64,000 nt of DNA from Owenia fusiformis. Taxonomy: Eukaryota > Annelida > Polychaeta > Sabellida > Oweniidae. The stretch covers positions 59,165,885 to 59,229,884 of the forward strand of contig CAIIXF020000001.1 in assembly GCA_903813345.2 (NCBI GenBank), written 5' to 3'. Positions 7,292-59,089 of the stretch are shown here, piece after piece. Position 1 is the stretch's first letter; the number at the start of each line of letters is the position of its first letter. The position numbers and the translations under genes are program-made. The notes below the pieces were generated by a model. The model worked only from the letters and a program-made list of their open reading frames with translations, searched no databases and was not told the DNA's origin.

Positions 7292-10200
7292 ATGAGGCTG
7301 GTAAGTTTAATAAAGGGGTTGTCTCTAGGTCCCCACAAAACAATGTCAAAATAACCTGAAAAGCAAATCATTTTAAACTAATCAATTATATAGTATTAAG
7401 TGAGATTAATTTTTCTGTAATTCCTTGCTTTGATAAAAATTTGAATTTCAACTCACTTATTTGTAAAGAATTGCCTTAAGTCATAACAATTGCATGAATA
7501 TTGCATCATTTTTATCGAATCTATGACCCCTCCCATTTGGATTGTCCCTTGACTGTATTATATTTTACTTTCAGTACTGCCTGTCAGGTCACCCCAACAG
7601 ACCATGTTTCATCCTGAAGTTCAAAAGTGTCACTATAATGCTAGACTGTGGCCTGGATACTACTTCTCTTCTCAGTTTTCTACCCATACCTGTTGTTCCA
7701 AGGTAAGCACCTTTTCCCATCACTACCAAGAAGTGGGGAAATTTTGTTATAGCGAACAGTATTTCACCATTTAATGTCAGTGTCTGTTACACTTTTCAAG
7801 ATGTTGATAGTAGCTTGTGTTAAGTCATATTTTATTAGAGATATTTGAGAATGGAAAAGCATGATTTGAGCAAATCATATTGATGAGCAGCTCCTCAGTT
7901 TCAAAGCCATATTGAGCTCCTTGTAATTGATTCTATACATTTTATTTTTTTAGCCAGAAGTTGTCAAAACTGTCTAATTGGGTAGCAAAGGGAGACAAAG
8001 AGGTTAAGCTAGCAGCTAAAGAGCTGAAGGAGAATGGAGGACGTGTTTTCATAGACAGTCCCCCTGAGTTTTATATTCCAGAAGTAAGTTCTTTTCTCTC
8101 TTTGGTGTCTTAATTATTAGCTGAGCCCTGTCCTTTAAATTTAAAACAATGATTTTAATTCCATCAAAGTTCTTAGAGGAATTTGGAGGAATCATCTATT
8201 CATTTTTCAACCAGGGCATTAACTCATATACTTGTTGATGGATTTGGTTCAAACTTATAAACTGATGCCTAAGTGGCATAGAACCTTGGTTCAATAATGA
8301 ACTTCCAGTATAGCTGCTCAATTCAAGATGGTATCTTTGATTCATGCTGTATCAGGGCTTAACATTTTCAACTCATTGTATTTTTTGATGAATGTGCTTA
8401 TGCCATTATAATTACAAATGTATATCATATTCTTAATATGTATTTCTTAGATTGATATGACTGATCTGTCTGAAGTGGACGTGATATTAATATCCAACTC
8501 TAATTGTATGATGAGCCTTCCATACATCACTCAGCACTCTGGCTTTAAAGGGGTAGTCTATGCTACAGAACCCACACTTCAAGTTGGCAGGTGAGTTTCC
8601 TTAAAGGGGCAGTCTATAATATTGAACCCACACTGCAAGTTGGCTGGTGAGTTACTTTAAAGGGTAGTCTAAAGTCTGCTACAGAACCAAAACTACAAGT
8701 TGGCAGGTGAGTTACTTTAATAAAGGGTAGTCTATGCTACAGAACCAACACTTCAAGTTGTCAGGTGAGTTCCTTTAAAGGGGTAGTCTATAATATTGAA
8801 CCCACACTGCAAGTTGGCAGGTGAGTTACTTTAAAGGGGCAGTCTATGATATTGAACCCACACTGCAAGTTGGCAGGTGAGTTACTTTGATAATGAGCTG
8901 TCATAAAATGAATGACCAATGCATAGCAAGGGTTTGGGAGGCTAGAATCTACAACCAGGAAGAAATAAGTAGGCGAAATAAAAAACAATCATCAATCCAT
9001 GTGACATCCCCTCAACCTAGTGAACAGACAGTCTGATTGGTCTAAAGCTGCTTTTCATGTTTCTATGTGTTTTGTTGCAGACAGTACATGGAAGAGCTTG
9101 TTGAGTATATAACTAGAGTGCCAAAGACATATACTGCCACAAAATGGAAACAACCAAATGTCAACAAGTAAGTGAACTACATAGGGAGGTTAAGCTATGT
9201 ATTTTAACTTAAGAGAACTTGTATGTGAACATATGGGATTATGACCCCAAGGGATTACTGACCCCCCTCTCTCAATTGGTTTTTCCTGAGAATTTATGAC
9301 AGATATTTATTTCTTATAACTTTTACTTAATTGGTCAAGTTAATACTAGGAAGGGGAGAACCCGGCATTTCTGGAGGACCATAGTTCTCCAGGTTTATGT
9401 TCAAGTTCTCTTAAATATGTAGCTTTACCTGTTACCATCAGCTTTGTCTTTATCATCACCATGTTTTATTTTTATGTATATTGTTTTTTATTGGCTTCTT
9501 TCCCTTACCTTTTATCTGCTGCACATTCTCCAAAGAATTAAGTACCAAAGGTATGAACTTGTTATTTCTGCTTGCAGACACCTGCCAGCACCTCTCAGTG
9601 ATGTGCCAAACCCATTGTCCTGGAAAACATGTTACACCAAACAACAGGTGGATGACAGCCTTGCTAAAGTTCAGATGGTTGGCTTTGGCCAGAAAATTGT
9701 AAGTCATGAAGTTTTGCTTTACCACCATTGGAGCGAGAAAGTGATAGAATTATTTTCTGTTTCATTAGACTTACGTGTACTTCAGATGAAATGTCTTAAA
9801 GTGGTCAAAACATCCCACATTTTCTTTATTTCGCGTATTCTGATGTTTGAGCAAATGAATACTTAATTAAGTAATTCTAAATTCTGAAACATGTGCAGCA
9901 CCAAGTTGATGACAATGATTAGCTTCAATGCTGGAGTTCTCACTGTCACTTATGAAAAAAATATTGAATTTGTCCCTTTGCAATACGTGAAATGTAAATC
10001 CTGTCTGATTGGAACACCGCTGGAGCCAGCCAAAAGTTTGAATTGTCAGATGATAGCAATCGTAAATGTAAACTGTTTTTCTTTGTCTTTTAAGGATATA
10101 TTTGGAGCAGTGACGGTGACAGCAATTAGCTCTGGTTATAGAATGGGCAGCTCTAACTGGGTCATCAAATCAGATTATGAAAAAGTAAAATATTTTCTAT

Positions 10201-18987: not shown

Positions 18988-21900
18988 TTATGTACCAGAT
19001 GAACTAGAGTCTGAGTCCTCAGAACTACTGGACGCTTTTTGTGCTGGTTTCTTTGGGGACAGTACCTGAGCCACGCGTTTAACTTCTGGGGGATCCTTTT
19101 TTACAGTTTTCTTTGGCGGTTGTCCTGTTGTTAAGTGGCTCCCTTCTGATTCAGATTCAGAGTCTGTAGAATTATCAGAATCAGAACTTGATACTAGTCT
19201 TTTTGTGGGGCTTTTCACCAGTTTCTTCGGAGAAGCAATTTTGGCTAATTTCTTAGGGGAAGAATTCTGAAACGATTTCTTAGGCGAAGAATTCTGGGCT
19301 GGTTTCTTCAGGGAGACGTCTTTTTTAGGTGATGACTGGAAAGGAATCAAAACAATGTTATGAACCATGATTTCTCAATTTTTAATAATAAAATTGCAAG
19401 TAAAGAGTGTCCAAGGAATATAGAATGTCATGAATGCTATTATAACATTTGATAAAGTGGTTCGGATTGTAGAATGACATTGTGCTATTCATAATGACAG
19501 CCATTATCATTATACATGGACACTACCATCTATTTTTCCACTTATTTTGTTTATTATTTCATGTCTCAAAATTGCCTTTCTGTCCCTAGGCTCCTTGAGA
19601 TTATTGAATTCTTTGCCCAAATTCCCTTAATTTTCCAGGTCAGAGAAAACCAATATGGTTTTCCTTGAAAGTGGCAACACTATACCTGTTTAAGTGGCAC
19701 ACTATTACACAAAGCACATGTAAGAGACTACCTGTTTAAGTGGCACACTATTACACAAAGCACATGTAAGAATCTTTACCTGTTTAAGTGGCACACTATT
19801 ACACAAAGCACATGTAAGAGACTACCTGTTTAAGTGGCACACTATTACACAAAGCACTGTAAGAGACTACCTGTTTAAGTGGCACACTATTACACAAAGC
19901 ACTGTAAGAGACTACCTGTTTAAGTGGCACACTATTACACAAAGCACTGTAAGAGACTACCTGTTTAAGTGGCACACTATTACACAAAGCACATGTAAGA
20001 ATCTTTACCTGTTTAAGTGGCACACTATTACACAAAGCACATGTAAGAGACTACCTGTTTAAGTGGCACACTATTACACAAAGCACTGTAAGAGACTACC
20101 TGTTTAAGTGGCACACTATTACACAAAGCACTGTAAGAGACTACCTGTTTAAGTGGCACACTATTACACAAAGCACTGTAAGAGACAACCTGTTTAAGTG
20201 GCTCACTATTACACAACGCACATGTAAGAGACTACCTGTTTAAGTGGCACACTATTACACAGAGCACTGTAAGAGACTACCTGTTTAAGTGGCACACTAT
20301 TACACAAAGCACTGTAAGAGACTACCTGTTTAAGTGGCACACTATTACACAAAGCACTGTAAGAGACTACCTGTTTAAGTGGCACACTATTACACAAAGT
20401 ACTGTAAGAGACTTTACCTGTTTAAGTGGCACACTATTACACAAAGTACTGTAAGAGACTTTACCTGTTTAAGTGGCACACTATTACACAAAGCTCATGT
20501 AAGAGTCTTTACCTGTTTAAGTGGCACACTATTACACAAAGCACATGTAAGATACTACCTGTTTAAGTGGCACACTATTACACAAAGCACATGTAAGAGA
20601 CTACCTGTTTAAGTGGCACACTATTACACAAAGTACTGTAAGATACTACCTGTTTAAGTGGCACACTATTACACAGAGCACTGTAAGAGACTACCTGTTT
20701 AAGTGGCACACTATTACACAGAGCACTGTAAGAGACTACCTGTTTAAGTGGCACACTATAACACAAAGCACTGTAAGAGACTTTACCTGTTTAAGTGGCA
20801 CATTATTACACAAAGTACTGTAAGAGACTACCTGTTTAAGTGGCACACTATTACACAAAGCACTGTAAGAGACTACCTGTTTAAGTGGCACACTATTACA
20901 CAAAGCACTGTAAGAGACTACCTGTTTAAGTGGCACACTATTACACAAAGTACTTTAAGAGACTTTACCTGTTTAAGTGGCACACTATTACACAAAGCAC
21001 ATGTAAGAGACTACCTGTTTAAGTGGCACACTATTACACAAAGTTCTGTAAGATACTACCTGTTTAAGTGGCACACTATTACACAGAGCACTGTAAGAGA
21101 CTACCTGTTTAAGTGGCACACTATTACACAAAGCACTGTAAGAGACTACCTGTTTAAGTGGCACACTATTACACAAAGTACTGTAAGATACTACCTGTTT
21201 AAGTGGCACACTATTACACAAAGTACTGTAAGATACTACCTGTTTAAGTGGCACACTATTACACAGAGCACATGTAAGAGTCTTTACCTGTTTAAGTGGC
21301 ACACTATTACACAAAGCACATGTAAGAGACTACCTGTTTAAGTGGCACACTATTACACAAAGCACTGTAAGAGACTACCTGTTTAAGTGGCACACTATTA
21401 CACAAAGCACTGTAAGAGCCAACCTGTTTAAGTGGCACACTATTACACAAAGCACTGTAAGAGACTACCTGTTTAAGTGGCACACTATTACACAAAGCAC
21501 TGTAAGAGACTACCTGTTTAAGTGGCACACTATTACACAAAGCACATGTAAGAATCTTTACCTGTTTAAGTGGCACACTATTACACAAAGCACATGTAAG
21601 AGACTACCTGTTTAAGTGGCACACTATTACACAAAGCACTGTAAGAGACAACCTGTTTAAGTGGCTCACTATTACACAACGCACATGTAAGAGACTACCT
21701 GTTTAAGTGGCACACTATTACACAAAGCACTGTAAGAGACAACCTGTTTAAGTGGCACACTATTACACAAAGCACATGTAAGATACTACCTGTTTAAGTG
21801 GCTCACTATTACACAACGCACATGTAAGAGACTACCTGTTTAAGTGGCACACTATTACACAAAGCACATGTAAGAGACTACCTGTTTAAGTGGCACACTA

Positions 21901-24900
21901 TTACACAAAGCACATGTAAGAGACTACCTGTTTAAGTGGCACACTATTACACAAAGCACTGTAAGAGACTACCTGTTTAAGTGGCACACTATTACACAAA
22001 GCACTGTAAGAGACTACCTGTTTAAGTGGCACACTATTACACAAAGCACTGTAAGAGACAACCTGTTTAAGTGGCACACTATTACACAAAGCACTGTAAG
22101 AGACAACCTGTTTAAGTGGCACACTATTACACAAAGCACATGTAAGATACTACCTGTTTAAGTGGCTCACTATTACACAACGCACATGTAAGAGACTACC
22201 TGTTTAAGTGGCACACTATTACACAAAGCACATGTAAGAGACTACCTGTTTAAGTGGCACACTATTACACAAAGCACTGTAAGAGACAACCTGTTTAAGT
22301 GGCTCACTATTACACAACGCACATGTAAGAGACTACCTGTTTAAGTGGCACACTATTACACAAAGCACATGTAAGAGACTACCTGTTTAAGTGGCTCACT
22401 ATTACACAAAGCACATGTAAGAGACTACCTGTTTAAGTGGCACACTATTACACAAAGCACATGTAAGAGACTTTACCTGTTTAAGTGGCACACTATTACA
22501 CAAAGCAAATGTAAGAGACTTTACCTGTTTAAGAAGCACACTATTACACAAAGCACATGTAAGAGACTTTACCTGTTTAAGTGGCACACTATTACACAGA
22601 GCACATGTAAGAGACTTTACCTGTTTAAGTGGCACACTATTACACAAAGCACATGTAAGAGACTACCTGTTTAAGTGGCACACTATTACACAAAGCACAT
22701 GTAAGAGACTACCTGTTTAAGTGGCACACTATTACACAAAGCACATGTAAGAGACTACCTGTTTAAGTGGCACACTATTACACAGAGCACATGTAAGAGA
22801 CTTTACCTGTTTAAGTGGCACACTATTACACAGAGCACATGTAAGAGACTTTACCTGTTTAAGTGGCACACTATTACACAAAGCACATGTAAGAGACTTT
22901 ACCTGTTTAAGTGGCACACTATTTCACAAAGCACATGTAAGAGACTTTACCTGTTTAAGTGGCACACTATTATACAAAGCACATGTAAGAGACTTTACCT
23001 GTTTAAGTGGCACACTATTACACAAAGCACTGTAAGAGACTTTACCTGTTTAAGTGCCAATGGCATAATGCCTGATACATCAGAGTCAGAGTCTTCATCA
23101 CTAGACCCTTTATCACTCGAGCCTGAACCACTCGAGCCTGATCCACTCGAGCCTGAATCACTTGAGCTCTCATCTGCAGTCTCCTTTTTGGCAGCCAACT
23201 AAAATGCAAATTACTGTACATTTATCAATCAAGACTGGAATACAGAAGAATTAAAAAATGATTGTACAACGACAGAACCTTTGGTCAATAACTTTGAAAA
23301 TGTGATCCAGCAGTTGTAGACATTGTTGGATCAAAATCTTTTTACGAGCAGTATGATCTAGAATTTCCGTGATACCCATATAAAATTTATTATCTTGGTG
23401 TACAAGTTAGAAATGTGTAGGAAACACCTGTGTCAGACTCAAATGTATCAAATAAACTAATTTGGTATATCTTATGTACGCAGTCACTCTGTTCCAGACC
23501 CAAACCGAACTGAAATTATTCCATTCCATTTTTATCATTATATACCACTGGGTACTCACATTTGTTGCTGGTAAATTTGGCACTGGATTTTCACTCTCCT
23601 CTGAATCAGACTCGCTTGAACTGCTACCACTCCCTGAACTGCTACCACTGCCTGAACTTCTCCTTTCAATTTCTTTCCTTGTTGTGGTTTGTGTGGATGG
23701 CTACAACAACCATGGGTGATAAAAATTGATTTTGAATTCCAATAATCAACATCAGTCATGATTGAATATTCACAATTATTAGATCACTGTCAAACTTACA
23801 ATTGTATGATTGGCCAAAACTGGGTCACATGTCACGGAAGATCAAGTGAATATTTAGGAATATCATCAATGTTTAAACATATAAATAAATATTGAGGATA
23901 GTGAACTTGGTAATGACACTAGTCTTCTCCAAGAGGAAATTAGTGAATTCTGCTGCGAAAATGCCAATTCCGCGAGATTTTTATGCGTTTCTAATGAAAA
24001 GAGAGATATAATCAAGCTTAAATATCTCTTTCTTGATAGCTGATCTACAACTACTCGATGACGATCCTATCACTGTCAGCATACATTCACTTATTTGATG
24101 ACAAAATTATTTTCAGAATTTAAATTATTTTATTTGCTTTTTTGCCTTTATTTATTTCAAATGTCTTAATCTAATGTTAAATCATAGGTTCTTAGGTTGA
24201 AGTTTTCCAAAAATAAACAAGAACACAAATGTGTACAAAATGTCCCCACCAATGGGTGATCCCATCAAATGGTTATCCTGAAAATGAGTAAACAAGACTT
24301 TACCAACACAATTTGAGGACGGAAAATCCAAAATGGCCACCTTAAAATTTACCCAGAATGCCAAAAATTTAGTCAGTTCTAGATTTTCAAACTAAGAACC
24401 ACCCCTGAAAATTTTTAATTGATCCGTCACACATTTAACTAGAAAACATGTAAACAAGACTTTACAGACAAGATTTTAGGATGGAAAATCCAAAATGGCT
24501 GCCTTGACATTTACCCAGAATGTCAAAAAACTAATCTGTTCCTAGATTTTCATACTAAGAATCATCCCTGAAAATATGACATTGATCTACCAAATGGTTC
24601 ACCTGAAAACGCGTAGACAAGACTTTACAGACAAGATTTTAGGATTGAAAATCCAAAATGGCTGCCTTGACATTTACCCAGAATGTCAAAAAACTAATCT
24701 GTTCCTAGATTTTCATACTAAGAATCATCCCTGAAAATATGACATTGATCTACCAAACCGTTCACCTAAAAACGCGTAGACAAGACTTTACAGGCAAGAT
24801 TTTAAGATGGAAAATCCAAAATGGCTGCCTTGACATTTATCCAGAATGCCAAAAAACTAATCAGATCTAGATTTTCATACTAAGAATCATCCCTAAAAAG

Positions 24901-27900
24901 TTGAAATTGATCTACAGAACGGTTCACCTGGAAATGCATAGACAAGACTTTACAGACAAGATTTTAGGACAGAAAATCCAAAATGGCTGCCTTGACATTT
25001 GCCCAGAATGCCAAAAAACTAATCAGTTCTACATTTCCATACTAAGAATCATCTCTGAAAATTTGAAATTGATCTACCAAACGGTTCACCTGAAAACGCG
25101 TAGACAAGACTTTACAGACAAGATTTTAGGACGGAAAATCCAAAATGGCTGCCTTGACATTTATCCAGAATGCCAAAAAACAAATCAGATCTAGAATTTT
25201 ATACTAAGAATCATCCCTGAAAATTTGAAATTGATCCACCAAACGGTTCACCTGAAAACCCGTAGACAAGACTTCACAGACAAGATTTTAGGACAGAAAA
25301 ATCCAAAATGGCCGACAATAAAAAAGTGATTATGTGTTTTTGCTGATTTCTTCTTACAAAATTATCACATATAACTACTGTTAACAATAACATAGGCTTT
25401 TACAACAAAGTACATGTGAAATTATTTATAAAGCTACTAAATAGTTAAAGTATGAAAACTCAAAAACACCATTCAATATGATACAAAGTATTATCGTGCG
25501 CTAACTTTTCTTAAGATATTCAAAATGGCTGACATGACTGAGCTAACAGGTCCAAAACCTAATCAGATCTAGAATGAAGTGAGCTGAACAAGATGTTAAA
25601 GTTTTAAAAGCAACTGTGAAGCCGTTTTTCTTAAAGTTTGCAGACAAGGATTTTAGCTTTTGACTTAAAAATGGCCGACAGGAAGTAGGTATCGAGTTAA
25701 AATTTTTTCATCCACATCTGTATGCACTCATAAGTTATCCCTGAAAATTTGAAGGAGATATCTGTAGCGGTTTTGGAGAAAACTCCCGGACGTACGGACA
25801 GACGGACGGACGTACGTACGGACAGACGGACGGACGTACGTACGGACGGACAGACGGACGCGCCTAGGCCGACAATATGGCCCCACACTATGTGGTGGGG
25901 ACATAATTAAAAGATGTTCAAATTTTTCTTGACATCTTCACTTCTGATTAAATCAGGGGGAAAGCTGAATTCAGTGTAAAACGATATGGTGACAGGAACA
26001 TATGGACTTTAACACATGATGCCATCTAGTGAGAGAAAAAAACAACACAACAAATTTTATCTATTTTGCAGTTTTGGCTATCTGTGAATGATTTCTATGG
26101 GGATTCAACTGCAGAAAGTATAAAATTACTGAGGTAAGGGGCATATTCATGCATTCAGAAAATATGTCAATTCTGTGCAAAATAATTGATTTATTGCTAT
26201 ATGAAGGAAATAAGAAACAAATAAATAAAAAAAGATCAAATTCTAAGATTAAGATTCTGCATGAAGGTATATTCCATTTGCGCTCTGTGAAAACGGCATT
26301 CTAGGGGGAGTAATAATAATAAAAAAAAATTTCATTCTATTTACTTATTAGGTAATATAGTCAACACAGTAGGTAAACAAAGTCTTGTGTAAATAAATAA
26401 AGTCATAAACAGTATACCGTCTGTGGGGCTGTTTTCTTCCTTGGGGTTTTCAGAGCAGCAGCATGTGTCCTCTTAAATTTACCATATTCCTTCACCTCAT
26501 TCAGATGAGCTTCATAGTCTGCTTGCTCTTTCTCAGACAGACCCTGCAAGCATTCACAAAGAAGTAATAACATTACAATCTTCTCAGACAGCTGCTGACT
26601 AGAAATGAAGAAATTCACTCACATAAAAATGGTGGCCATTTTTCAAAATAGCCACCAACTCCCCAAAGTGTCATTAGACAGTGTGCCATGTTTATAGTAT
26701 TCACATATCAAATATGAACAAAATCGCTCAACTACTTTTCGAATTCTGGTAAAAACTGTAAAAATACTACCGGAAGTGTCATTTGACAGTGTGCAAGGCT
26801 TCTAGTATTCACATTTTCGAGTTATAGTAAAGAAAACATAAAATAACCCATATAAAAATGGTGGACATTTTTCAAAATGGTCACGTTCTACCCAAAATGA
26901 CATTAGACAGTGTGCCATGCTTGTAGTATTCACATACCAGAACTTCGATGGAATAACAATATTTCTTTTCTCTTTGTTTGATTCAAAATGACATAAAATT
27001 AAAAACTAACTGCTTTAAATTCCTCCAGTTCTTTATTATATTCAGCCTTCTTCTGCTCAGTCTTGTCCTTGTACTTTTTCTTTTCCTGTTCTGACAATGC
27101 CTTATAAAGCAGTGAAATGTGTTTCATCCGTTCATTGTTAGGTAGAGCTGCTACAGATTTTGAGACCATCTTCTCACGAGTGAATACGTTGTAAGCATTT
27201 CTGAAACCAATAGATAAGGGTTATGTACTGGGAGGTTTTGGATATGGGGTTTATCCAAGAGGGAGATATGCATATCTACCTGAGGGACCGTAGGGACCAA
27301 AGGTAGATGTGCATATCTCACGAAGGATGAACCCAATATCCAAACCGACCGTACATAACTGCTTTATCCTATACCAAGTAGAGTTTTCTAATTTTCTTTC
27401 AATTTTTTTTTATTTTTTCAATTTTTTCACATTTTTCTTATTTTTTTTCTATTTTTTCAATTCTTTTTCTTTTTTTCAATTTTTCACATTTTTCTTTTTC
27501 TCATTTTTTCAAATTTTTTTTCGAAGCGGGAAGATATGCCCTGGAGCGGGAGATATGGCGGGAGATATGGAGGTTCAGGATATGGAAACCTCAAAATCAG
27601 GATACGGGATATATCTTACCAACTTATCTCCCTAAAACTCTACTTGGCATTGGATAATGTTAACTATGTATTACAGAACATCTTATTAACAGGGCTCTAG
27701 CAGATAATTACAATTACAAAAAACAGCTCCAAAATTATATGGCACCATTCTTGCCTGAAATAACATAGAGTTCTTGTCTCTATAGCAAGCTTCATCTTAA
27801 TATAATATCTAAATGTATTCTCACCCTAGGTACTTCTTAGGTTCTCCTGGGAACTCCTTAGGTTTAGGAATATCAGAATCACAACTTGATATTGATCTCT

Positions 27901-30900
27901 CTGTATGACTTTTCACTAGTTTCTTTGAAGAAGCATTCTTGGCTGATATGTTTGTGGAAGAATTCCCAACTGATTTCTTTGGCGAAGAATTCTGGGCTAA
28001 TTTTTTTGGGGATGACTGGAAAGGAATCAAAAGCATGCAACAATATACAGTATGTACATGTAGTTTATGAAGTGTTATTTTTCATTATCAAAATGATTTT
28101 TGTTCTAAAATTGCAAGCATGGAGTATGTTCAAGGAAGTAATGTTCTAAGATTCGATTGTTTAAAAATGAAAGTGGTCCAGATTGTAGAATGACATCACA
28201 CCATTCATAATGGTAGTTATTATTGTTATACATTCTAGAATCTGTTTCTCAATGTTTCCACCTTTTTTCTGTTTCTCATTTCAAGTCTAAAAATTCCCTG
28301 TTTTATCTTATTTTAGGCTTTTTCGAGACAATTCTTAGTTCCAACATGATTCTAAAAACCAATATGATTTTCCTTGAACATGGCAACACTATTAGACAAA
28401 GCACATTTAAAGAGATCGGATCATCCAGATTTCTCTCCCGGACAATCAGTAATGTCCTAATATAACTGCTCATATAACATCATGATTCATATATACTTTA
28501 GATATATTTTGAGACCAAATTATGAGCACAGTTTCACCAATATATTGAGAAAATCAACAGACAAGCAAAGAACAACCAACTGTCTAGAGCACAATAAGTC
28601 TATAACAACATACAATTTTTTTACATTGTAAAACATTTGTACAGTAAGTAATTAAAAGGATAAAAATATGTTGTGATAAAAAATATATAATAAAAAAAGA
28701 TTGTCAAAGCCGGGAATCGAACCCCAACCTTTTTGACAAAAGCATAGGACGATAAGAAGTCCAAAGTCATCATATAACAAGGAAAAAAAAAAGGGGGGTT
28801 ACTCTAATTGTGCTTTTGGACGATCTGATCTCTTTGAGAGACATTACCTGTTTAAGTGGCAATGGCACGATGCCTGATACATCAGAGTCAGAGTCTTCAT
28901 CACCAGACCCTGAACCACTCGAGCCTGAACCACTCGAGCCTGAACCACTCGAGCCTGATTCACTCGAGCTCTCATCTGCATTGCCTTTGGCCTCTTTTTT
29001 AGCAGCCAACTAAATAAAAAGGTAAACTACTATATTAATTAAGCCTAGATTATAGAAGAAAAACAATTGTACAATGACAGAATCTTTGGTCAATAACTTA
29101 ATAAATGTATATCAGCAGTTGTAGACAATGTTGATCGAAAATAATAAAAATGTTTTCCTTCTAAATATGTTGTTTCTTAATGCTGTCAATACATATAAAA
29201 ACATTGAAAGTATACACGTTCGATACCCCATAGGAACTCACATTTTTTGCTGGTAAATTTGGCATTTGATCCTCAACCTCTTCTGAATCAGACCCACTTG
29301 AACTGCTACCACTCCCTGAACTGCTACCACTGCCTGAACTTCTCCTTTCAATTTCTTTAGTTGTGGTAGATTGAGTGGATGGCTATAATAAACATGGGTG
29401 ATAAAAATTGATTCTGAATCCAAATATAAACTCAACTCAAAGTTAATATTGAATATTTACAAATATGGAACATTCATTCATGACATAACAATTCAATTAA
29501 CCATTGAACATAGGTACAGGTATATTGCATGGTATCTTTAGTATATGGAGACCCGAATTTCTAATTCTCAAATTTCTAAAAAAGAGTAAACAAAGTCTCG
29601 TGTCGTAATCAAATCCATAAGGAGCATACCGTCTGTGGGGCTGTTTTCTTTCTTGGGGTTTTCAGGGCGGCAATGTGTGTCCTCCGAAATTTACCATATT
29701 CCTTTACCTCCTTCAGATGAGCTTCATAGTCTGCTCGTTCTTTATCAGAGAGACCCTGCAAGCATTCACGAGGAATTAATAACATCGCAAAATATTTTCA
29801 CTTGGTAAGTTATAATAACTGGTTACAAAAACGTGACAATGGTTATGACATAAAAAGACACATGGTGATAGACATCACACTTTAAAGAGCAAAATGGTGG
29901 CATGAGTCTTGGGATGAGTCTGACATTAAAGGTATGTTAATTTTCTAATTTGTAGTGTATATATATATCTTTTATTGACTCTCTGATGTCATTGCAATGA
30001 CATATTAGTCACTACAAACTACAATATACAAAATTAAACTAAGACTAAACTAACTACTTCATAGGAAATATACAAAGTTGTAAAATACAATTACAGCATC
30101 ACAAAATGTAAAATACAAAAATGAGATAATTGTAAAATATAGATACAACATGACAGAATTTAAAACATCAGTGTGATGTATCATTGTTACAATATTAATC
30201 CAGTTTTTTGAATGAATGATAAATGAACTTTGCTAGGTGTAAAATTACATAAGAATTTTTATGAGACAAAAGCTTTTTGAAAATAAAGTTAGAACTTCCT
30301 ACAAAATTGAATTGCGTAAGGGTGTCAAACAAAAGTTTTCTCTCTGTAGTGTAAAAATAAAGGGAGACAATGTCTTATTCTACAATAAATATTACTTTTT
30401 TATTAATTCAAAATGATGTGTAAGAAAACACTAACTGCTTTAAAATCCTCCAGTTCTTTATTATATTCAGACTTCCTCTGCTCACTCTTGTCCTTGTACT
30501 TTTTCTTTTCCTGTTCTGACAATGTCTTCCAAAGCAGTGAAATGTGTTTCATCCGTTCGTTGTTATGTAGAGCTGCTACAGATTTTGAGACCATCTTCTC
30601 ACTAGTGAATAAGGTGTAAGCATTTCTGAAACCCACAAAGTGTTCACCGTGTATTACACAATATTCTTTTATACAGAGCTGTAGAAAATTTATACATAAT
30701 AGATATATATATATTTTTAATCAATAGGTTTATTTCATATATACAAACAAATATACAATGAATAGACAGGGTTGGGGCAAACCGCCTTCCGGCATTTCAT
30801 GTCCCCATATAAAGATTTACAAAAGATAGCATGTATGCAAAATTCAAATAGCTAAAATTTGATAATAGATATAGGTACAGTATATTGGCTTTTTTAGTTT

Positions 30901-36900: not shown

Positions 36901-39900
36901 ACAACATGTTCAATTTAACTCTCTCTATAAAGATTCAATCCAACTTAACTAATACACTCATTCGAAAAAAAATCTACTAATTTTAAAAACCTACTTTGAG
37001 AACAAAAAATTGATCACAAGGCCTGCTATGTTACAGACGTCAACCACTGAAGGTCAAACACCAACCATCTAACACCATTCACAAAAAGTTGAAGACTATA
37101 CAAGGTTATAGCTACACTTATGATCCTACCTTTGAAGTGATTTCAACAAATTTTTGACAACATTCTTCAGGAGTATGGTTGTTTATGTTGATGTCTTCCC
37201 AGGAAAGGTGGTTGATCCTAGCCACATAGCCCTGATCATCCCCCTTGGGAAGTTGTTCTGTGACCCATGTCACCAAAGCATTTTTCTCCTCATTTGTCCA
37301 TGTAGCATCTAAATGGAAGAATTCAATGCCGTTATGGTCCTTGCACTGACAATAGCGCACCCAGTTAAAATTAACAGTTGAAAATCCATTCAAAGAATAA
37401 GTGCCTGAGATTTATCGCATCCTACGACCCCTTTAGATTGTGGTCGTAGGCCCGATTCATTAGTAAGCCTGTGTTTCTACAATGTCGGAGAATGAACTAT
37501 GCATTGCACACATAAATGACCTACCTCGATACATTCAAGAGTATTTTAAAATTCTTTTTATGTTGTTAGATCGCCAATTGTACGCGTTTATCGTCAGAAC
37601 GAAGAGATTTTAGTTTTTACATCGGAAATATCTCAGCAATTTTCAAAATGTCGGAAGGGGAATTCCCCAGGGATTTCCCTTATGACTGGTGCATGCCGGG
37701 AACTGAATGGAGGAATTTGACGGTTGAACATACACGCAAATATTGCTATCAAAAACGAAAATATCTTCGTTCTTCCGATAAACCCATACAATTTGCGATT
37801 CAACTATATGAAAAGAATTCTAAAATACTCAGGAATGTATCGAGGTAGGTCATTTATGTGTGCAATGCATAGTTCATTCTCCGACATTGTAGAAACACAG
37901 GCTTACTAATGAATCGGGCCTACGACCACAATCTAAAGGGGTCGTAGGATGCGATAACCTGAGATTAGAATATCAAGTTTAGAAAATAATTTTTGGGCTA
38001 GCGTTATTTATATCGGAAGGTTAGTATCAACATTCATGTTATAAATTGGATATACAACGATTTAGTTTTATCAGAAAATAACTATTTAAAGTTGATAAAT
38101 ACACTCAGATTCCATCAAATAACTACCTTGAAAAAAATTTCCCGGGGGAGCATGCCCCCCGAGATGCGCGGCCTTCGGCCACGCAATCCTCAAGTGTGCG
38201 TACCAACTCAAAATATACGCCCATGTGATTGCCACAATTGACCATATTGTCACTCATTTTATCACCCTAAAGTTCACTGATCAGATTTTCTAAGTCCATT
38301 GCCAAAACTGAGGTTTGGACCCCTGATTTGGACATTCTTAATCAGAATATGCATTTGTGAAAAAATATGGGCAATACAGTAAAACCTGTCTTAGTGAGCA
38401 GCTCTCTCTCTCTAGTAAACACCTATGTTTACTGAACACCAATCCAATACATATTTTACATCAATTCCTGTATCAAACCCTCTCTGTAGTGAACACCTAC
38501 CTATAGTGAACACTTTTTTGTGACTTTATAGGGGTTCACTATATACAGGTTTTACTGTATATAAATAAATCTACTATGACTAATTATCAAAATAACCTGA
38601 ATATATGAGGAATTCTTCTTTAAAATATGTGTTAAGTAACAGTATCCAATACACCCCGCCAACTATTTGTATATCAAAGGACCTATGATATATTGGTTCA
38701 TGATGGGATTGGTTCTACCTTATCTAAAAATAGCAATAAGTTAATCCTATTTTTTACTTGGGCTTGGTACCTACAACCAATGACATCATCAATTTAGCCA
38801 ATATATCATAACTTCTTAGATATACCAAAAGGAAGGTGGCAGGCATATTGCTACCTACAACCAATGACATCATCAATTTAGCCAATATATCATAGCTTCT
38901 TTGATATACCAAAAGGAAGGTGGCAGGCATATTGCTACCTACAACCACTGACATCATCAATTTAGTCAATATATCATAGCTTATTTGATATACCAAAAGG
39001 AAGGTAGCAGGCATATTGCTACCTACAACCAATGACATCATCAATTTAGTCAATATATCATAGCTTATTTGATACACCAAAAGGAAGGTGGCAGGCATAT
39101 TGCTACCTACAACCACTGACATCATCAATTTAGTCAATATATCATGGCTTATTTGATATACCAAAAGGAAGGTGACAGGCATATTGCTACCTACAACCAA
39201 TGACATCATCAATTAAGCCAATAGCTTCTTTGATGTACCAAAAGGTGGCAGGGTTTATTGGAAAGGTTTATTGAGAAAAGTAAAGTACTTGTGGTTTCAT
39301 CTGGAGTAGAATCATGTGCTTCTTGATTGTTTGATGTAGTTGCTTCTTGATTGGCACCTTCAGCCTCTTGTTGATTGTTTGCTTTACTTTCTCGTTGATC
39401 GCTTGATGAACTTTCTCCCTGACTGAGCTTCTTTTCCTTCTTAACTTTTTTTCGTTTGGGCAGTATGGGAGATTTCATAGGATTCTCTGTAATATAATTC
39501 ACTTATATTATGACATATTAGGATTCAACTCAAAAGGAGTTGGAATGTTGAGAAAACAAAGATTGGCAACTTCAATTAGAAAGGAATTGGTCTGCCATTT
39601 CAAGATTTCTCAACCATTTGAGTTGAATTTTTCAGCAGGTGTACAATGTTTAATTCTGAATTGACAGACAATATTTTATAAACATATCACTTCTAAAAAA
39701 AGTAAAAGTGGTCCGCAGTCAGCAAATTTTGACTGATGTTAGTCTGAAAATTTCCTGCCAAACATATTCATCTTGCCTAGATGGTTGCTTCAAACTACTC
39801 ATACTAGAGGCAGAACAGTACTCTTGAAATCATTTATTCAGAAGTATTCTTAATTGCTGAGAGGATCATTTCATTTATAATTGTTTCCATTAGCCTGGAC

Positions 39901-42888
39901 GCAAATGCATTGTTGACAAACCTAGTCCATAAAGACGTGTTCTAAACCTCCCTTTCGGTATCCCTTGAAGATTTGCTCAAGCCGTTGAAATCAAACATAT
40001 GACCTCTCATATGATGCTTTAGCACCCAAATTGTAGTGAAGCCCAATGGTGCTTCATCTGGTGAATATTGTCAGGTGAATATGGGGCAGTAACAATTTGT
40101 GTGAACCCTAATTCTTCAAGAGCAGTATGGGCAGTTTGAGGAGTGGGGAGGAGCATAGACATAATGGAGGATAACTCCCGCTATTTTGAGTCATGATTGT
40201 GACTTTGAGAGTCTGACGAATGATAAGAAAATAGAGCAAAGTACACTTGTATATCATAATACAGAAGTTACTCTAGAAACTAAAGTTAGAGGTATTTAAA
40301 AATATAATAAAAATCACAGAAATATCATTATAATATGTCCACCAAATAGGTATTAATTAACCATACTTTTGGATCAAGTAAAATTTGAATTCATTTTTAT
40401 TTTACTTGACCCGCTACGCCATTTGTCATGTTGCTATAGTAACAATAATAATCCATTGTGACATCAGATGACAATGAGACTGTTTTATCCAATCCAAAAT
40501 CACAATCCCCATTTACCTTGAAAATTTCAAGTAAACTGGTTAAACCAGAACAACGGCAACGCCAAAGCGTAGCGAATCCCATCGAACAGAAATGGCTGGC
40601 ATTTTTACAAACGAATAGCAAATATCATAAAACAACACACCAGAAAGGCCACCATTTTCAAAATGGTTGCTCACTAGCCAAGTTGTCATCAGAAGAAATA
40701 ATATGCTTTTCAGTAGCCACCTCTAAAATTTTTGAAAAATCGCACACATACTTGTAAAATAACACACATAAAAATGGTGGCCATTTTTCAAAATGGCCGA
40801 CTACTCCCCAAAGTTTTATTAGACAATGTGCCATGCTTAAAGTATTCACATATCAAATATGAACAAAATTGCTCTACTACTTTTCGAGTTATAGTAAAAT
40901 ACGTTAAAATGGCGGCCATTTTTCATAAAATTTTTCAAAATGGCCGCCTTCTACCAAAAGTGTCATAGGACAGTGTGCCATGCTAATAGTATTCACATAC
41001 CAAATATGAACAAAATCGCTCCACTACTTTTCGAGTTATAGTAAAATACGTTAAAATGGCGGCCATTTTTCAAAATGGCCGCCTTCTACCAAAAGTGTCT
41101 TTAGACAGTGTACAATGCTTATAGTATTCACATACCAAATATGAACAAAATCACTCCACTATTTTTTGAGTTATAGCAAAGATCGTAAAATGACGAGTAA
41201 AGGCCGCCATTTTTCAAGATGGCTGCCATGTGCTTCTTTAATATCTACATTTGTAGCATTATTAATGTCCTTTATAATTTTTTTACATTTAAAACATATT
41301 GATATAACAGTTTTACATATTGCACCTAAATTACTGTAAAATCGGCACTAAAATGGCCGCCATTTTGAAATGAGCGGCCATTTTGAAAATCGGCTTTCGA
41401 GCAGAACTTCTACCCCAATAAGGTATATGTGTACAAAATATGAACAAAATCGGGCCAACGGTATTTGAGTTATTGCCCGGACGGACGGACAGACGGACGG
41501 ACGTACGTACGGACGGACGTACGTACGGACGGACGTACGTACGGACGGACGTACGTACGGACGGACGTACGTACGGACGGACGGACGGAGGCGTTCCCTA
41601 TATCCCTCCGAACTTCGTTCGATGGGATAAAAATAATGAAATGACAGATAAATTCCCAGAACTTAGTGATCATCCTGTATTCAATTGTATCAATAGAACT
41701 TTTTATATTTGTCGAAAAAATAATAACTGTTATATTTGTTAAAAACCAGTTGGAATAAAACATACCTGAGTCCAAAGTAGAGTCAAGAGGAGTCACTTCA
41801 GTTTTCTTTTTCTTCAGTTTCTTTACTTTGTGTCTGGTATCTGATGATGACACACCAGCTGTGCCGAAACAAATAGGATTATATGAACATTCCCACGTAG
41901 GTAAAAAACAATGTAAATTGAAATTTAAGATATTAATTTCAGTTTATGCAGTTCAGCAAACAAACCTCAAATCTGGCTCATGAATCATTGAATATAATAT
42001 AAAAATTATAGAAAAATAATTTTGGGTTACAATGATCAGTTCACAGTGTCTTAATTATTTAGACAGTGTTATCAATATTTGTTACATTGTATATTTAGCA
42101 TATGTATTGTAGAAATTGCAGTATTTATTTTACATTCCTTAAGGAAAAATGTGTGTCTGTAAAACAACTATAGCATTACCGATCTTACAATATGTAAGTG
42201 TAAATGTACAATATGTAAGTGTAAATATACAATATGTAAGTATAAATGTACAATATGTAAGTGTAAATATACAATATGTAAATGTAAATGTATAATATGT
42301 AAGTGTAAATATACAATATGTAAGTGTAAATGTACAATATGTAAGTGTAAATATACAAAATGTAAGTGTAAATGTATTTGTAATATGACTTAAAAAACAA
42401 CAACAACAAAGAACACAACATACCTGAACCTGAGTCCAAGGTGGAGTTAAGAGGAGTCATTTCACTTTTCTTTTTCTTCAGTTTCTTTACTTTGTGGCCG
42501 GTATCTGCTGATGATGACGCACCAGCTGTACAGAAACAAATAGGATTAAACGAACAGAAAACAAAAACAATACACAAATTGAAATAAAAAATATTCATTT
42601 TAATTCATGCAATTAAAGCAAACAGATCTCAAATCTGATTCAACAAATCTCTGTCTAGTGTCTATATACATTGTTTCCAAACAACATTCTGAAATGCTTC
42701 TCTTATTTAAAAAAATTCCCAATTTTTCTGCCCTATTCTATATGTTTTAACTTTTTAGATTTGACCAATAAAACCTTGTTCAAGTTGATGAAGACAGTTG
42801 TTATAGCCTACAAGCCTGGAAATTTATACTTACTATTGTCTATTGATGTATCTGCAGATTGAGAACTCTTTTCTCTTTTTCTCTTCAT
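18988..42888 (-). CDS. UBTF: UBF/UBTF-like HMG-box nucleolar transcription factor
   Basis: Twenty-three coding exons read on the minus strand join in phase to 1118 codons: 42888-42834, 42525-42424, 41858-41766, 39486-39289, 37308-37130, 36823-36689, 36280-36170, 34971-34856, 33540-33417, 33091-32972, 32699-32493, 31475-31399, 31085-31014, 30625-30436, 29755-29630, 29382-29242, 29009-28848, 28015-27825, 27200-27011, 26543-26418, 23700-23560, 23198-23046 and 19335-18988. Residues about 150-225 (ATWTNEEKNALVTWV, LSWEDI, RKSRSLSEILKD) match the UBF N-terminal dimerisation region. HMG boxes follow at about 230-295, 325-395, 445-500, 515-590 and 785-860. Serine/acidic tails and SSPKK repeats come last. 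UBF loads SL1 and opens rDNA chromatin for RNA polymerase I. The protein is longer than the about 760-residue human one because the last box and tail are duplicated and a Lys-rich N-terminal extension is present. Confidence 0.9.
19686..23053 (-). repeat. Minisatellite of ~73 units, each containing an exon end and 5' splice donor
   Basis: Units of 45, 46 or 48 bp read on the plus strand acctgtttaagtggcacact then attacacaaagcac, with (a)tgtaagagact(tt). On the gene strand each unit contains CCACTTAAACAG|GTAGTC or |GTAAAG, identical to the end of exon 22 (...LKQ) and its donor at 23046/23045. The array fills most of intron 22. The unit-length variants are mixed, and the 48-bp form clusters near the exon. 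The paralogous intron at 28015-28848 has only a single seed. Confidence 0.97.
24235..25905. repeat. Composite repeat: seven ~160-bp units and a CGGA/CGTA microsatellite between inverted ends
   Basis: Units of 160-166 bp, each with aaaatccaaaatggctgcc and agacaagactttacagac, run from about 24290 to 25320. Two looser AAAATGGC stretches follow. At 25787-25862 lies a cggacgtacggacagacgga array. The outer ends match as inverted repeats (tgtccccacca near 24241; tggtggggaca near 25891). It lies in intron 20 of the UBF-like gene, where the paralogous intron is only 247 bp. A long plus-strand open frame at 24901-25194 is a by-product of the repeat. Confidence 0.8.
26620..26990. repeat. AAAATGGTGGCC-type repeat, diverged copies
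   Basis: Three degenerate units of the kind seen at 40540-41640 (aaaatggtgg(c/a)catttttcaaaat, gtcattagacagtgtgcca, tagtattcacat) lie in intron 19 of the UBF-like gene. Confidence 0.75.
27210..27655. mobile_element. Dispersed element, copy A (copy B inverted at 57035-57440)
   Basis: It shares with 57035-57440, on the opposite strand, the pieces ctgggaggttttggatatgg, catatctacctgagggaccg, atgcacatctcac-like text, aagtagagtttt, and the gcgggagatatggcgggaga tail. Within the copy, accaagtagagtttt and aaactctacttggca form an inverted pair. A T-rich run (about 27385-27520) separates the halves in copy A only. Confidence 0.7.
27825..28015 (-). other. Fusion exon 18 of the UBF-like gene at a tandem-duplication breakpoint
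   Basis: The N-terminal two thirds (SSPKKLAQNSSPKK ... KKLVKSHTERS) resemble terminal exon 23 (SSPKK..., KKLVKSPTKR, SSSDSDN). The C-terminal third (PKPKEFPGEPKKYLG) resembles exon 13 (PKPEDFPGEPKKYTG). The switch falls at about 27868-27873 and keeps the frame open. See the finding. Confidence 0.85.
28407..28840. mobile_element. Insertion with inverted ends AAAGAGATC...GATCTCTTT in UBF-like intron 17
   Basis: The left end aaagagatcggatcatcc and right end ggacgatctgatctcttt are near-perfect inverted repeats. The right-end text (gggggttactctaattgtgc onward) recurs at 53418-53460, and a left-part text (ggacaatcagtaatgtcc ... attgagaaaatcaacag) recurs at about 55205-55325, so the family is dispersed. 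The paralogous intron lacks it. Confidence 0.7.
28705..28735 (-). other. tRNA-like B-box (T-arm) sequence, probable SINE fragment
   Basis: The minus strand reads GGTTGGGGTTCGATTCCCGG, a good polymerase III B box and T arm, preceded by an anticodon-arm-like GGACTTCTTATCGTCC. No A box, D arm or pairing acceptor stem is visible, so this is a tRNA-derived fragment and not a functional tRNA gene. Confidence 0.45.
32037..32390. mobile_element. 354-bp MITE with TTAA target duplication
   Basis: The perfect terminal inverted repeat GGATGTTCCCTGG ... CCAGGGAACATCC is flanked by TTAA at 32033-32036 and 32391-32394. It lies in intron 11 of the UBF-like gene. The TTAA target suggests a piggyBac-type source of transposase. 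Confidence 0.8.
33180..33265 (-). repeat. Dispersed ~90-bp repeat, copy 4
   Basis: It reads aacaaggcattaacatgcaa, then aatgtcatcacctgccattt, then gttact, matching the other copies but lacking the distal half. It sits in intron 9 of the UBF-like gene. Confidence 0.6.
35100..35985. repeat. Composite AAAATGGC repeat with TATCGCACTTTGA-type inverted ends
   Basis: The left end contains aaatatcgcactttgaagag and the right end ttcaaagtgcgataaaaag, an inverted pair. Inside are repeated units with aaattcaaaatggcc, acctaatcagatcttgg and ctgctcttgcatctgtaaa. The design is like that of the 24235-25905 and 40540-41640 composites but with other end sequences. It is in intron 7 of the UBF-like gene. Confidence 0.7.
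37010..37110 (-). repeat. Dispersed ~90-bp repeat, copy 5
   Basis: It reads gttacagacgtcaaccactg, then aacaccaaccatctaacacc, then caaaaagttgaagactata. It sits just downstream of exon 5 of the UBF-like gene. Confidence 0.55.
37413..37958. mobile_element. Fold-back element with ~120-bp inverted repeats and 8-bp flanking repeat
   Basis: The ends TATCGCATCCTACGACCCC and GGGGTCGTAGGATGCGATA begin inverted repeats of over 100 bp. CTGAGATT lies at 37405-37412 and again at 37959-37966, as expected for an 8-bp (hAT-type) duplication with two extra bases on the right. The centre holds an open frame (37648-37848) that starts MSEGEFPRDFPYDWCMPG and ends at a consensus GAG|GTAGGT donor. This could be a captured host exon; no family was recognised. 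Confidence 0.75.
38140..38215. repeat. GC-rich hairpin piece (gcgcggccttcggccacgc)
   Basis: A sharply GC-rich island containing cccgggggagcatgcccccc and gcggccttcggccacgc, both self-complementary, in AT-rich intron. It looks like the end of a transposon that is otherwise not visible. Confidence 0.4.
38377..38557. mobile_element. 181-bp TA-flanked MITE with perfect 13-bp inverted ends
   Basis: CAGTAAAACCTGT at the left and ACAGGTTTTACTG at the right are perfect inverted repeats, each bordered by TA, as for a Tc1/mariner-mobilised MITE. The inside repeats gtgaacac(ct) phrases. Related copies are at 15307-15468 and, degraded, about 54945-55025. Confidence 0.85.
38765..39260. repeat. 84-bp tandem repeat, about six copies
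   Basis: The unit is tacctacaaccaatgacatc, then atcaatttagccaatatatc, then a gatataccaaaaggaaggt stretch. Starts are near 38768, 38852, 38935, 39019, 39103 and 39187. Because 84 is a multiple of three, a 152-residue frame stays open on the minus strand; it is not a gene. It lies 30 bp intronic of the exon 4 donor of the UBF-like gene. Confidence 0.9.
40540..41640. repeat. Composite AAAATGGCGGCCATTTT repeat with CGGACGTA microsatellite and inverted ends
   Basis: The left end caaagcgtagcgaatcccat continues cgaac; the right end cgttcgatgggataaa is its inverse. Five or six units of about 140 bp carry head-to-head aaaatggcggccatttt and gagttatagtaaaat, then a cggacggacgtacgtacgga array at 41464-41590. 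It lies in intron 3 of the UBF-like gene. Related copies are at 43490-44330 and 45890-46310. Confidence 0.85.
41464..41590. repeat. CGGACGTACGTA microsatellite
   Basis: Alternating cggacgga and cgtacgtacg blocks, locally palindromic. Frames on both strands stay open through it and produce RTDGRTYG or VRTYVRPS text, which is an artefact. Confidence 0.95.
42189..42376. repeat. 21-bp tandem repeat in alternating pairs, nine copies
   Basis: The unit is caatatgtaagtgtaaatgta. Copies ending atgta and atata alternate, giving a 42-bp higher-order unit. It lies in intron 2 of the UBF-like gene between exons 2 and 3. It keeps a YIYTYIL frame open on the minus strand. Confidence 0.93.
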
Positions 42889-57034: not shown

Positions 57035-57440
57035 TTTTTATCCTATGCCAAGTAGAGTTTTAGGGAGATAAGTTGGTAAGATATATCCCGTATCCTGATT
57101 TTGAGGTTTCCATATCCAGAACCTCCATATCTCCCGCCATATCTCCCGCTTCGGTGCATGTCTTCCCGCTTCCGGTGCATATCTTCCCGCTTCCGGTAAT
57201 GCATAAAATGACTTTGCATATGAATGATTTGTTTATTTTTACACCTTGTACTATTAAAATGGCCATATGCCCCTGAAAACTCTACTTGGTATAGGATAAA
57301 GCAGTTATGTACGGTCGGTTTGGATATTGGGTTCATCCCTCGTGAGATATGCACATCTACCTTCGGTCCCTACGGTCCATCAGGTAGATAGGCATATCTC
57401 CCTCTGGATAAACCCCATATCTAAAACCTCCCAGCACATA
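57035..57440. mobile_element. Dispersed element, copy B (inverse of 27210-27655)
   Basis: It contains the same blocks in reverse complement: tatgccaagtagagtttt, ctcccgccatatctcccgct, acggtcggtttggatattgg, gatatgcacatctacctt and aaacctcccagcacataac. A cttcccgcttccggtgcata phrase is repeated inside. Confidence 0.7.
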
Positions 57441-58037
57441 ACAATTATTTATTTGTTTAAAGTATCCATTAGTTTTTGAATTATTCACGTTCTGATAGTG
57501 GGCAGCATGGGTTCATATGAATTCAAATCGTACAAATCAAGTCATTTTAAGTGTTGAATAAATATGTAATTTTAAAAAACCCACCTTATAATATTATGAC
57601 TTAAATCACTAAAATGATCTGGCATTTCTATCTAGTTAAATTGAAAAGATGGACAAAGGGACATGCATGAGGAATGACATTTCCCTTTACAAATTTACCA
57701 GTAGTAGCTATTCTTAGGTATTATGCAGATTCTAATTCAAACGTTCAACATGCAACCTAAACATTAAAGGGGTCGTTAAGTTAGGGTTTCCAAACTTTAA
57801 GTTACATGTACATGCATCACCAGCAACACGAAAGTACCACGACCATGTGCTGAATGTGGAGTGAAAATGATTGTTATCTGGATAGATGAGTTTCTATATA
57901 GCTTTGAATTCCCGGTGTGGAAGAAATGATGGTCCCCTAGGGATTATGGTCCCCTTTCTTAACGGCCCTTACTGGCCCTGATTGCGTATAAGATAATGGG
58001 GGAAAGAGTTGTATTTAGGTCACCATATAAATCAATG

Positions 58038-58272
58038 GAGAGTAGGATCATAATTTGATAGGACCTCCTACCCTTTTACACCTGGTTTAAAATCTCGCTA
58101 ATTCCCTTTTTTGTCGAGAGTAGGACCATAATTTGATAGGACCTCCTACCCTTTTACACCTGGTTTAAAATCTCGCTAATTCCCTTTTTTGTCGAGAGTA
58201 GGACCATAATTTGATAGGACCTCCTACCCTTTTACACCTGGTTTAAAATCTCGCCAATTCCCTTTTTTTGTC
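58038..58272. repeat. 78-bp tandem repeat, three copies
   Basis: The unit is agtaggaccataatttgata, then ggacctcctacccttttaca, then cctggtttaaaatctcgcta. It starts at 58041, 58119 and 58197 and is almost identical between copies, so it is recent. Confidence 0.93.
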
Positions 58273-58628: not shown

Positions 58629-59089
58629 AAACAAAAGATAATCAAGGGTGACATCTATTATATCAGCTTTATTCAGCAATTTTGAAACTCCCTTATTGAC
58701 AATGGTGTAATTTTACCATCCCTGAAATATGAATATAGAACAGAATATAAAAGTAAGCAAAATAACTTTTACTGGCATGTTGACGTCCGTAGGGTGTTCA
58801 TATTTCTGCATATTTCGAGCATGTCAAAGAAAATTATTACGATGGTGACTTATGAATTACAATACTCCTGTAGACACTTGCTAGAAGTTCATATCTGGCC
58901 CTTCCTTGCTCATCAGTTTTCCTTCGAAATTGGAAAAATATTTTTATCAAATCAATTCTTTAAATTTCTAATTCAGGTCAGATAGGCCTCAAGTATCCTG
59001 AAAATATAATAAAATATTGATAACTTTTTCAGGATTATGTCGAGGTCATTGCAATGGGTCACGAATACGCTTTTGTCCCCTCAGTTATA

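Follow-up and report, generated by a model that had tools for sequence, protein, structure and literature searches.

In a 64,000-nucleotide stretch of the genome of the annelid Owenia fusiformis (assembly GCA_903813345.2, contig CAIIXF020000001.1, positions 59,165,885 to 59,229,884; here called the window), the last coding intron of an HMG-box gene carries a minisatellite that repeats the 5' splice site of the preceding exon, its donor, some 73 times. With a probability of about 0.72 we read it as a donor minisatellite that was born by slippage, is tolerated via exon definition and is one of a genome-wide class. The direct basis of this reading is the anatomy of the array, a single-copy sister in the same gene, the recurrence of such arrays at exon ends and the loss of the reading frame with most of the later donors. 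From these we infer the slippage step, the use of the first donor (donor 1) and exon definition as the reason for the tolerance.

Anatomy and birth of the array

The HMG-box gene occupies 18988-30720 and contains a multi-exon block that is duplicated internally (about 30.7-27.8 kb and 27.2-19.0 kb). HMG-box exons upstream of the array match Pfam HMG_box with E values of 9e-8, 1.7e-9 and 7.6e-5, the last being under the curated cut-off. Like the original prediction, we take the gene to be UBF-like; the HMG boxes are the support for that name here. The stop codon lies in exon 23, and no coding intron follows the one that bears the array. Sister exons of the two array-flanking exons are found within 29140-27865; the sister intron, 5.8 kb from the main array, holds no array. 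The features concerned are:

23046-23198, minus strand: exon 22 of the HMG-box (UBF-like) gene, an open frame ending PLALKQ in phase 0; its donor, 23045, opens the array as donor 1; end of the sister exon at 28848
19683-23056, minus strand: donor-site minisatellite (main array), 73 units of 45-48 bp, from Tandem Repeats Finder (TRF), the unit list and a genome query
22759-23045, minus strand: the first six units, exon-proximal and of the founder-type GTAAAG (five measure 48 bp, one 47 bp), from unit order
18988-19335, minus strand: exon 23, the last coding exon, with the stop codon inside, read from the sequence
27011-27205, minus strand: HMG-box exon of the array-bearing block, start approximate (Pfam HMG_box, E 9e-8)
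28338-28910, minus strand: array-free sister junction with donor 28847; a single unit copy follows the donor and is split by an insert
28411-28837, minus strand: this insert, 427 bp, with inverted ends of about 20 bp and a TTAA-like target, in the sister intron, seen in the sequence

TRF delimits the main array at 19683-23056, with 73.3 copies and 95% matches. The donor AAACAG/GT (the slash marks the junction) occurs at 74 sites, from 23045 down to 19685; the search required the GT, which is thus present at every site by construction. The 73 intervals measure 45 bp (n = 31), 46 bp (n = 23), 47 bp (n = 5) or 48 bp (n = 14). The intronic array of about 73 donor-copying units of 45-48 bp that had been predicted is therefore real. 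The true donor is also the first of the row, as claimed: the array starts at a real coding-exon end, as judged from the open frame of exon 22 (23198-23046; translation ending ...DSDVSGIMPLALKQ, phase 0) and from the homologous sister junction.

Each unit comprises the exon end (11-13 nt) and the first part of the intron, the AG/GT donor included. The exonic part is 11 nt by ungapped extension; 13 nt are common with the sister exon in 72 of the 73 units. The distinct unit sequences number 24. Among the donors, GTAGTC (40) and GTAAAG (19), the two types named by the original prediction, account for 59 of the 74; the other 15 are GTAGTA (7), GTTGTC (6), GTTGGC (1) and GTATAG (1). Derived types (GTAGTC, GTAGTA, GTTGTC or GTTGGC) make up 54 of the 74. 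Nor is the exact exon end copied, as had been stated. Exon 22 ends GGCACTTAAACAG, whereas 72 of the 73 units and the sister exon have GCCACTTAAACAG, one base apart (GGCACTT in the present exon 22, GCCACTT in the others). Since the units agree with the sister exon and exon 22 is one base off, the older sequence of the exon appears to be preserved in the copies.

The 13-mer CACTTAAACAGGT, which spans the exon-donor junction, occurs in the window 74 times on the minus strand (once at the sister junction) and not at all on the plus strand, which excludes the array as a product of chance. A transposable element, a satellite invasion or an assembly artefact might be suspected in a window so rich in tandem and dispersed repeats. 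However, all 31 matches of a 124-base unit query against the 498-Mb genome fell inside the main array (one candidate region was scored, and very common words are skipped by the search). The 24 unit types also speak against this explanation, as does the finding, described below, that, the splice signal aside, units of different genes are unrelated to one another and each match their own exon. We find it hardly credible.

The birth of the array can be read from the sister intron. When the 427-bp insert, which is probably a miniature inverted-repeat transposable element (MITE), is taken out, the start of this intron can be aligned first with unit 1 of the array and, beyond it, with the far edge, at the cost of a few mismatches and one-base gaps; a single copy of the unit thus adjoins the sister donor. 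The copy is bounded by exonic TTGCCACTT and by intronic TTGCCA, the latter corresponding to TTGCCACTT at the far edge of the array. About 49 bp past the TTGCCACTT at the sister exon end, the intron has TTGCCATGTTC, and the far edge of the array reads TTGCCACTTTC.

The array may thus have arisen by slippage between two short direct repeats: TTGCCACTT where exon 22 ends, and its intronic copy about 49 bp on. With the loss of one T, this would create a 48-bp founder unit, the type found beside the exon, where units 1-6 stand. The order of the units suggests that the 48-bp type was indeed the founder and that later types lost bases. Slippage at these particular repeats would explain why every unit repeats the exon end, the first part of the intron and the AG/GT donor. 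Expansion within the last coding intron of the HMG-box gene would have followed.

The units could, in principle, be something other than redundant donors. An acceptor-like word near the copied exon end had been predicted, and an AG is indeed present 16 nt upstream of it in 72 of the 73 units (TAATAG in 70 of the 73), but the preceding pyrimidine stretch is short and interrupted, and by eye the word makes a poor acceptor. Micro-exons of 16 bases, proposed on this ground, look unlikely from the sequence. That the intron is removed in pieces, by recursive splicing with zero-length exons, might be argued from the AG/GT that ends each unit and from a second acceptor-like word, CTTACAG, in 35 of the 73 units. 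Yet TGTGCCACTTAAACAG, which precedes the AG/GT, looks by eye like a poor acceptor that lacks a long pyrimidine tract, and 45-48 bp is very short for an animal intron. A related idea is that of an intron under construction by AGGT duplication, as in the Rogers model; tandem AGGT repeats serve as introns in fission yeast (PMC4974935), and in human segmental duplications repeats at exon boundaries are reported as a source of novel introns (PMC2812944). The sister junction, however, has an intron without an array; the intron therefore predates the array, and a new-intron reading was rejected. Both ideas together seem quite improbable.

Which donor is used

Donor 1 should be the one in use if the genes make their proteins, because most later donors lose the frame. 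In the main array the first unit, of 47 bp, breaks it, and the first in-frame stop is met 48 nt past exon 22. The original prediction had named the 46-bp units as frame-breaking and had expected read-through from exon 22 to run into a stop soon. Our frame script took copies with at least 9 of 12 base matches within the stretches read, which covers 66 of the 73 later donors of the main array. None of these 66 gives an in-frame, stop-free extension, and the suggestion that any donor would yield a usable transcript thus fails; a decaying transcript from later donors is possible. Among 26 arrays of the genome-wide census below that have a readable frame, 14 of 275 later donors extend the exon in frame and without a stop, and in 21 of the 26 no later donor keeps the frame open.

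Strength of pairing does not single out donor 1. All 74 sites pair with the 5' end of U1, with duplex energies from -5.6 to -9.4 kcal/mol; donor 1 has -8.3 kcal/mol. Because the U1 energy does not favour it, position and not strength should decide the choice of donor. Tandem donors are reportedly the subject of work by Lang and Spritz in 1983. In a minigene whose two CAG/guaagu donors were identical and lay 52 nt apart, the upstream donor was used exclusively under exon definition (PMC9225289). The array may persist because splicing takes the exon-proximal donor, the downstream donors being ignored and the mRNA left unchanged.

Simple tolerance, one of the options raised in the original prediction, is the best-supported reading. 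Its other options give the array a job, as a U1 sink, a decoy, a timer or, to add one more, a U1 platform against premature polyadenylation in a long intron. In favour of such a function, 74 sites can pair with U1, all with GT (by design of the search). But the unrelated units of about 17-63 bp in other genes look like birth in place and not like a designed element, 54 of the donors are of derived types, and the sister intron does without an array. A function of this kind seems very improbable, and the sequence offered nothing that speaks for a U1 sink or a timer of splicing, or for micro-exons.

Donor arrays across the genome

The main array is not unique. The window holds a second one, in another gene and on the other strand:

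8451-8590, plus strand: INTS9-like exon (PDB phmmer match to Integrator complex subunit 9, E 5e-41, with exons joined by hand); the second array copies its final 46 nt
8543-8888, plus strand: second minisatellite at a donor site, with about 6 copies of a 56-bp unit, from TRF and the sequence

This array begins inside the INTS9-like exon, and its unit consists of 46 exon nt and the donor GGCAG/GTGAGTT.

The genome was scanned for three successive donor words spaced 33-64 bp apart. Four words and one range of spacing were used, and the array counts are lower bounds. For CAGGTRAG there were 867 hits, and for its reversed form GARTGGAC 114; among the matches listed (the first 100), C1:1-53.8 Mb contains seven arrays of the former and one of the latter. 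AAGGTAAGT gave 95 hits, the complete list of which comprises 13 arrays if two clusters on C8 are taken together, and its reverse, TGAATGGAA, 51 hits and 10 arrays, again from a complete list. For CAGGTAAGT there were 140 hits against 53 for the control, with 11 arrays among the matches listed (10 of them new and used), and for GAGGTAAGT 145 hits against 55, with 12 arrays among the matches listed (three linked clusters on C3 counted as one). The excess of raw hits is misleading, because hits count the copies within large arrays.

In all, 44 arrays were looked at, the two of the window included, and for 21 of them homology or a sister intron supports a start at an exon end. For the main array the support is the sister intron; for the rest it is homology found with the 300 nt that precede donor 1, in Pfam (E <= 1e-3) or in the PDB. 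Donor 1 was placed partly by script and partly by hand. The matches of L023, L034 and L099 are counted, although they stay under Pfam's curated cut-off. The supported arrays beyond the window are:

CAGGTRAG set: L011, Rieske; L015, NIF phosphatase
AAGGTAAGT set: L018, UDPG/MGDP dehydrogenase; L020, DNAJC3; L021, calpain III; L023, FANCI; L025, Ig; L026, NCS-1; L028, CRIPT; L029, Got1/SFT2
CAGGTAAGT set: L033, Caprin-1; L034, kringle; L036, Il2rg-like; L039, B56
GAGGTAAGT set: L098, Muted; L099, Cep192; L102, AAA_11; L105, FAD-binding; L107, Neur_chan_LBD

A further 15 of the 44 start where an open reading frame ends but have no qualifying match; an open frame alone is weak evidence. These are L013, L014, L019, L022, L024, L027, L031, L032, L035, L040, L097, L100, L103, L104 and L106. 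Weak Pfam values were obtained for L019 (0.0026, UCH), L097 (0.016) and L104 (0.0078). The exons of L022, L027 and L019 presumably belong to ABCC, DIP2 and USP genes, respectively; a PDB search with the L022 and L027 peptides gave no match.

Unit sequences differ from gene to gene and match their own exon; nothing is common to them but the splice signal. Unit length in the other genes is about 17-63 bp, and in 26 exon-end arrays the exonic share of the unit is 6-50 nt (median 31). The main array would belong to a genome-wide class that is seated at donors in many unrelated genes, with a few mirror images at acceptors. The acceptor word TTTTGCAGG gave 31 hits and 5 arrays, the reversed word 23 hits (single copies 5329 and 4173, respectively). 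Three of the five arrays (L082, L083, L084) end at an open exon, with the last acceptor bordering it; the sole Pfam match among these three is a weak one of L082 (2OG-FeII_Oxy, 0.0015). At L081/L019 (C4:3646500-3652300) an exon lies between an 81-bp array upstream, the unit of which resembles an acceptor plus the first 7 exon nt, and a 54-bp array downstream, the unit of which carries the donor. Judged by sequence, the pattern is one of extra splice sites piling up outside the exon, on either side.

Is a real donor special, or just the word? As a random sample, 40 single occurrences of AAGGTAAGT were taken (list entries 1, 3, 5 ... 79). Confirmed exon ends were found for 8 of the 13 AAGGTAAGT arrays and for 5 of the 40 random sites (Fisher p = 0.0011; p = 0.0028 once repeat sites are merged to 34). 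The five sites are L069 (kinase), L072 (HSP70), L077 (kinesin), L052 (transportin) and L073 (leucine-rich repeat, weak); L041, a mobile-element reverse transcriptase, was scored negative. In the PDB, 4 array and 4 random-site peptides were searched. Because these were picked by eye, a count by Pfam alone is the fairer comparison: 11 of the 25 arrays of both words (5 of the 12 GAGGTAAGT arrays among them) against 3 of the 40 random sites, all of which are AAGGTAAGT (p = 0.0012), or against 4 of 40 with L041 counted (p = 0.0024). The Pfam input consisted of peptides of at least 30 aa open up to donor 1. It covered 12 of the 13 AAGGTAAGT arrays (L019 via a hand-cut peptide), 10 of the 12 GAGGTAAGT arrays and, with 20 peptides, 18 of the 40 random sites; a second-frame peptide of L068 and some of those from other arrays were not among the input.

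A number of points tell against our reading. Eight of the 44 arrays, all kept in the denominator, are not at an exon end or have an unreadable 5' end: L012, L017, L030 and L037 are without a clear exon, L016 and L038 begin about 54 and 85 nt past the donor of a recognised exon, and in L101 and L108 the 5' end was not reached. That donor 1 is used is deduced from homology and open frames, and the exon assignments depend on short peptides. In 5 of the 26 arrays (L021, L023, L032, L036, L040) a later donor would keep the frame open, and by duplex energy donor 1 is surpassed by 8 of the 74 donors and equalled by 18 others. Between short introns the downstream donor is preferred (PMC9225289), and Reed and Maniatis, as quoted there, favoured the downstream of two donors. 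In the random sample, 22 of the 40 sites, being without a 30-aa open frame before the word, were scored negative unsearched, and all 40 are AAGGTAAGT sites from the first 6.2 Mb of one contig, C1. Finally, arrays per word occurrence do not differ significantly between AAGGTAAGT (13/7130) and its reverse (10/11815; p = 0.083), nor does CAGGTRAG on C1 exceed its control significantly (7 against 1, given the word frequencies; p = 0.16).

The last figures are what one would expect if minisatellites arose everywhere at an equal rate and donors were merely common words. Reversed words do form arrays, 10 in the case of TGAATGGAA and 12 in that of GARTGGAC among the matches listed (the first 100 of 114). 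Nine of the ten TGAATGGAA arrays were inspected: L089 lies about 25 nt past the probable donor of a sodium:neurotransmitter symporter (SNF) exon (Pfam SNF, 1e-17), L092 is a possible donor array, and the other seven showed nothing on a rough look. Such chance overlap, however, sits badly with the excess of AAGGTAAGT arrays over single sites at confirmed exon ends and with the Pfam result for the arrays of the second word; we regard it as unlikely, though deserving attention. A word seems to seed arrays more often where it is a real donor than elsewhere, even though other words also form minisatellites.

One may go further and propose that functional splice sites are hotspots of minisatellite birth (odds ratio about 10), with a large genome-wide class of donor and acceptor arrays outside exons that exon definition, by choosing the innermost pair of sites, permits. 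As the excess of arrays per word is not significant, the hotspot claim rests on the comparison of exon ends with random sites. We hold this extended proposal only tentatively, at slightly less than even odds.

The region of the window is rich in tandem repeats in general. Further minisatellites are found at 24266-25312 (162 bp), 38764-39223 (84), 40771-41192 (147), 42186-42376 (21) and 58038-58268 (78). A dispersed repeat occurs at 27204-27657 and 57038-57458, with pieces 94-96% identical in opposite orientation, and open frames at 59024-60254 resemble, by eye, the reverse transcriptase of a mobile element.

Known systems and significance

Word searches of the open-licence literature turned up no description of a genome-wide class of donor-copying arrays. 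Donor choice between identical competitors has been studied with two-donor minigenes (PMC9225289). Owenia fusiformis offers many genes with rows of near-identical donors, of which mostly the first alone would lead to an intact protein, and RNA reads from this species could measure how the fidelity of exon-proximal choice depends on the number, spacing and strength of the donors. Should the hotspot class hold up, each array would be a natural experiment in which the spliceosome has to choose the first donor from a row of near-identical ones, numbering from a handful up to 74. If donors indeed seed minisatellites more than other sites do, splicing signals, or transcription across them, would be linked to the birth of repeats and to changes in intron length.

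Related systems are known. The first intron of an earthworm metallothionein gene holds minisatellites (PMC12783039); in the passages concerned they are not said to copy a splice site. Tandem duplication of AGGT has been described as a source of introns, from the Rogers model to ATP2A1 and the 24-bp repeats of fission yeast (PMC4974935). As in Owenia, the tandem copies are bounded by AG/GT, but there an exonic segment turns into a new intron, whereas the sister junction described here has its intron without an array. De Grassi and Ciccarelli (2009) reported minisatellites overlapping exon-intron boundaries in human segmental duplications, with 27 intron modifications (PMC2812944); these repeats, with units of 30 bp on average and 4 copies, are read as able to make novel introns in recent paralogues. 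The arrays of Owenia, in contrast, sit in existing introns of assorted conserved genes, and the donor is the repeated part.

The closest precedent is the 31-bp variable number tandem repeat (VNTR) of the human CBS gene, which is the same kind of thing; the original prediction knew of no described family of donor-site minisatellites. It was noted in the form c.1444_1467+7(16_21), that is, 16-21 copies at an exon-intron boundary (PMC2630376), and by this notation its unit comprises the last 24 exon and the first 7 intron nt, so that each copy repeats the donor, as in Owenia. The CBS repeat is the shorter one and belongs to one gene of one species; here we have 73 copies in the main array, many genes affected in one genome, and a sister intron that still holds the unit in single copy. 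Claims on the splicing of the CBS repeat were reportedly made by Lievers et al. in 2001.

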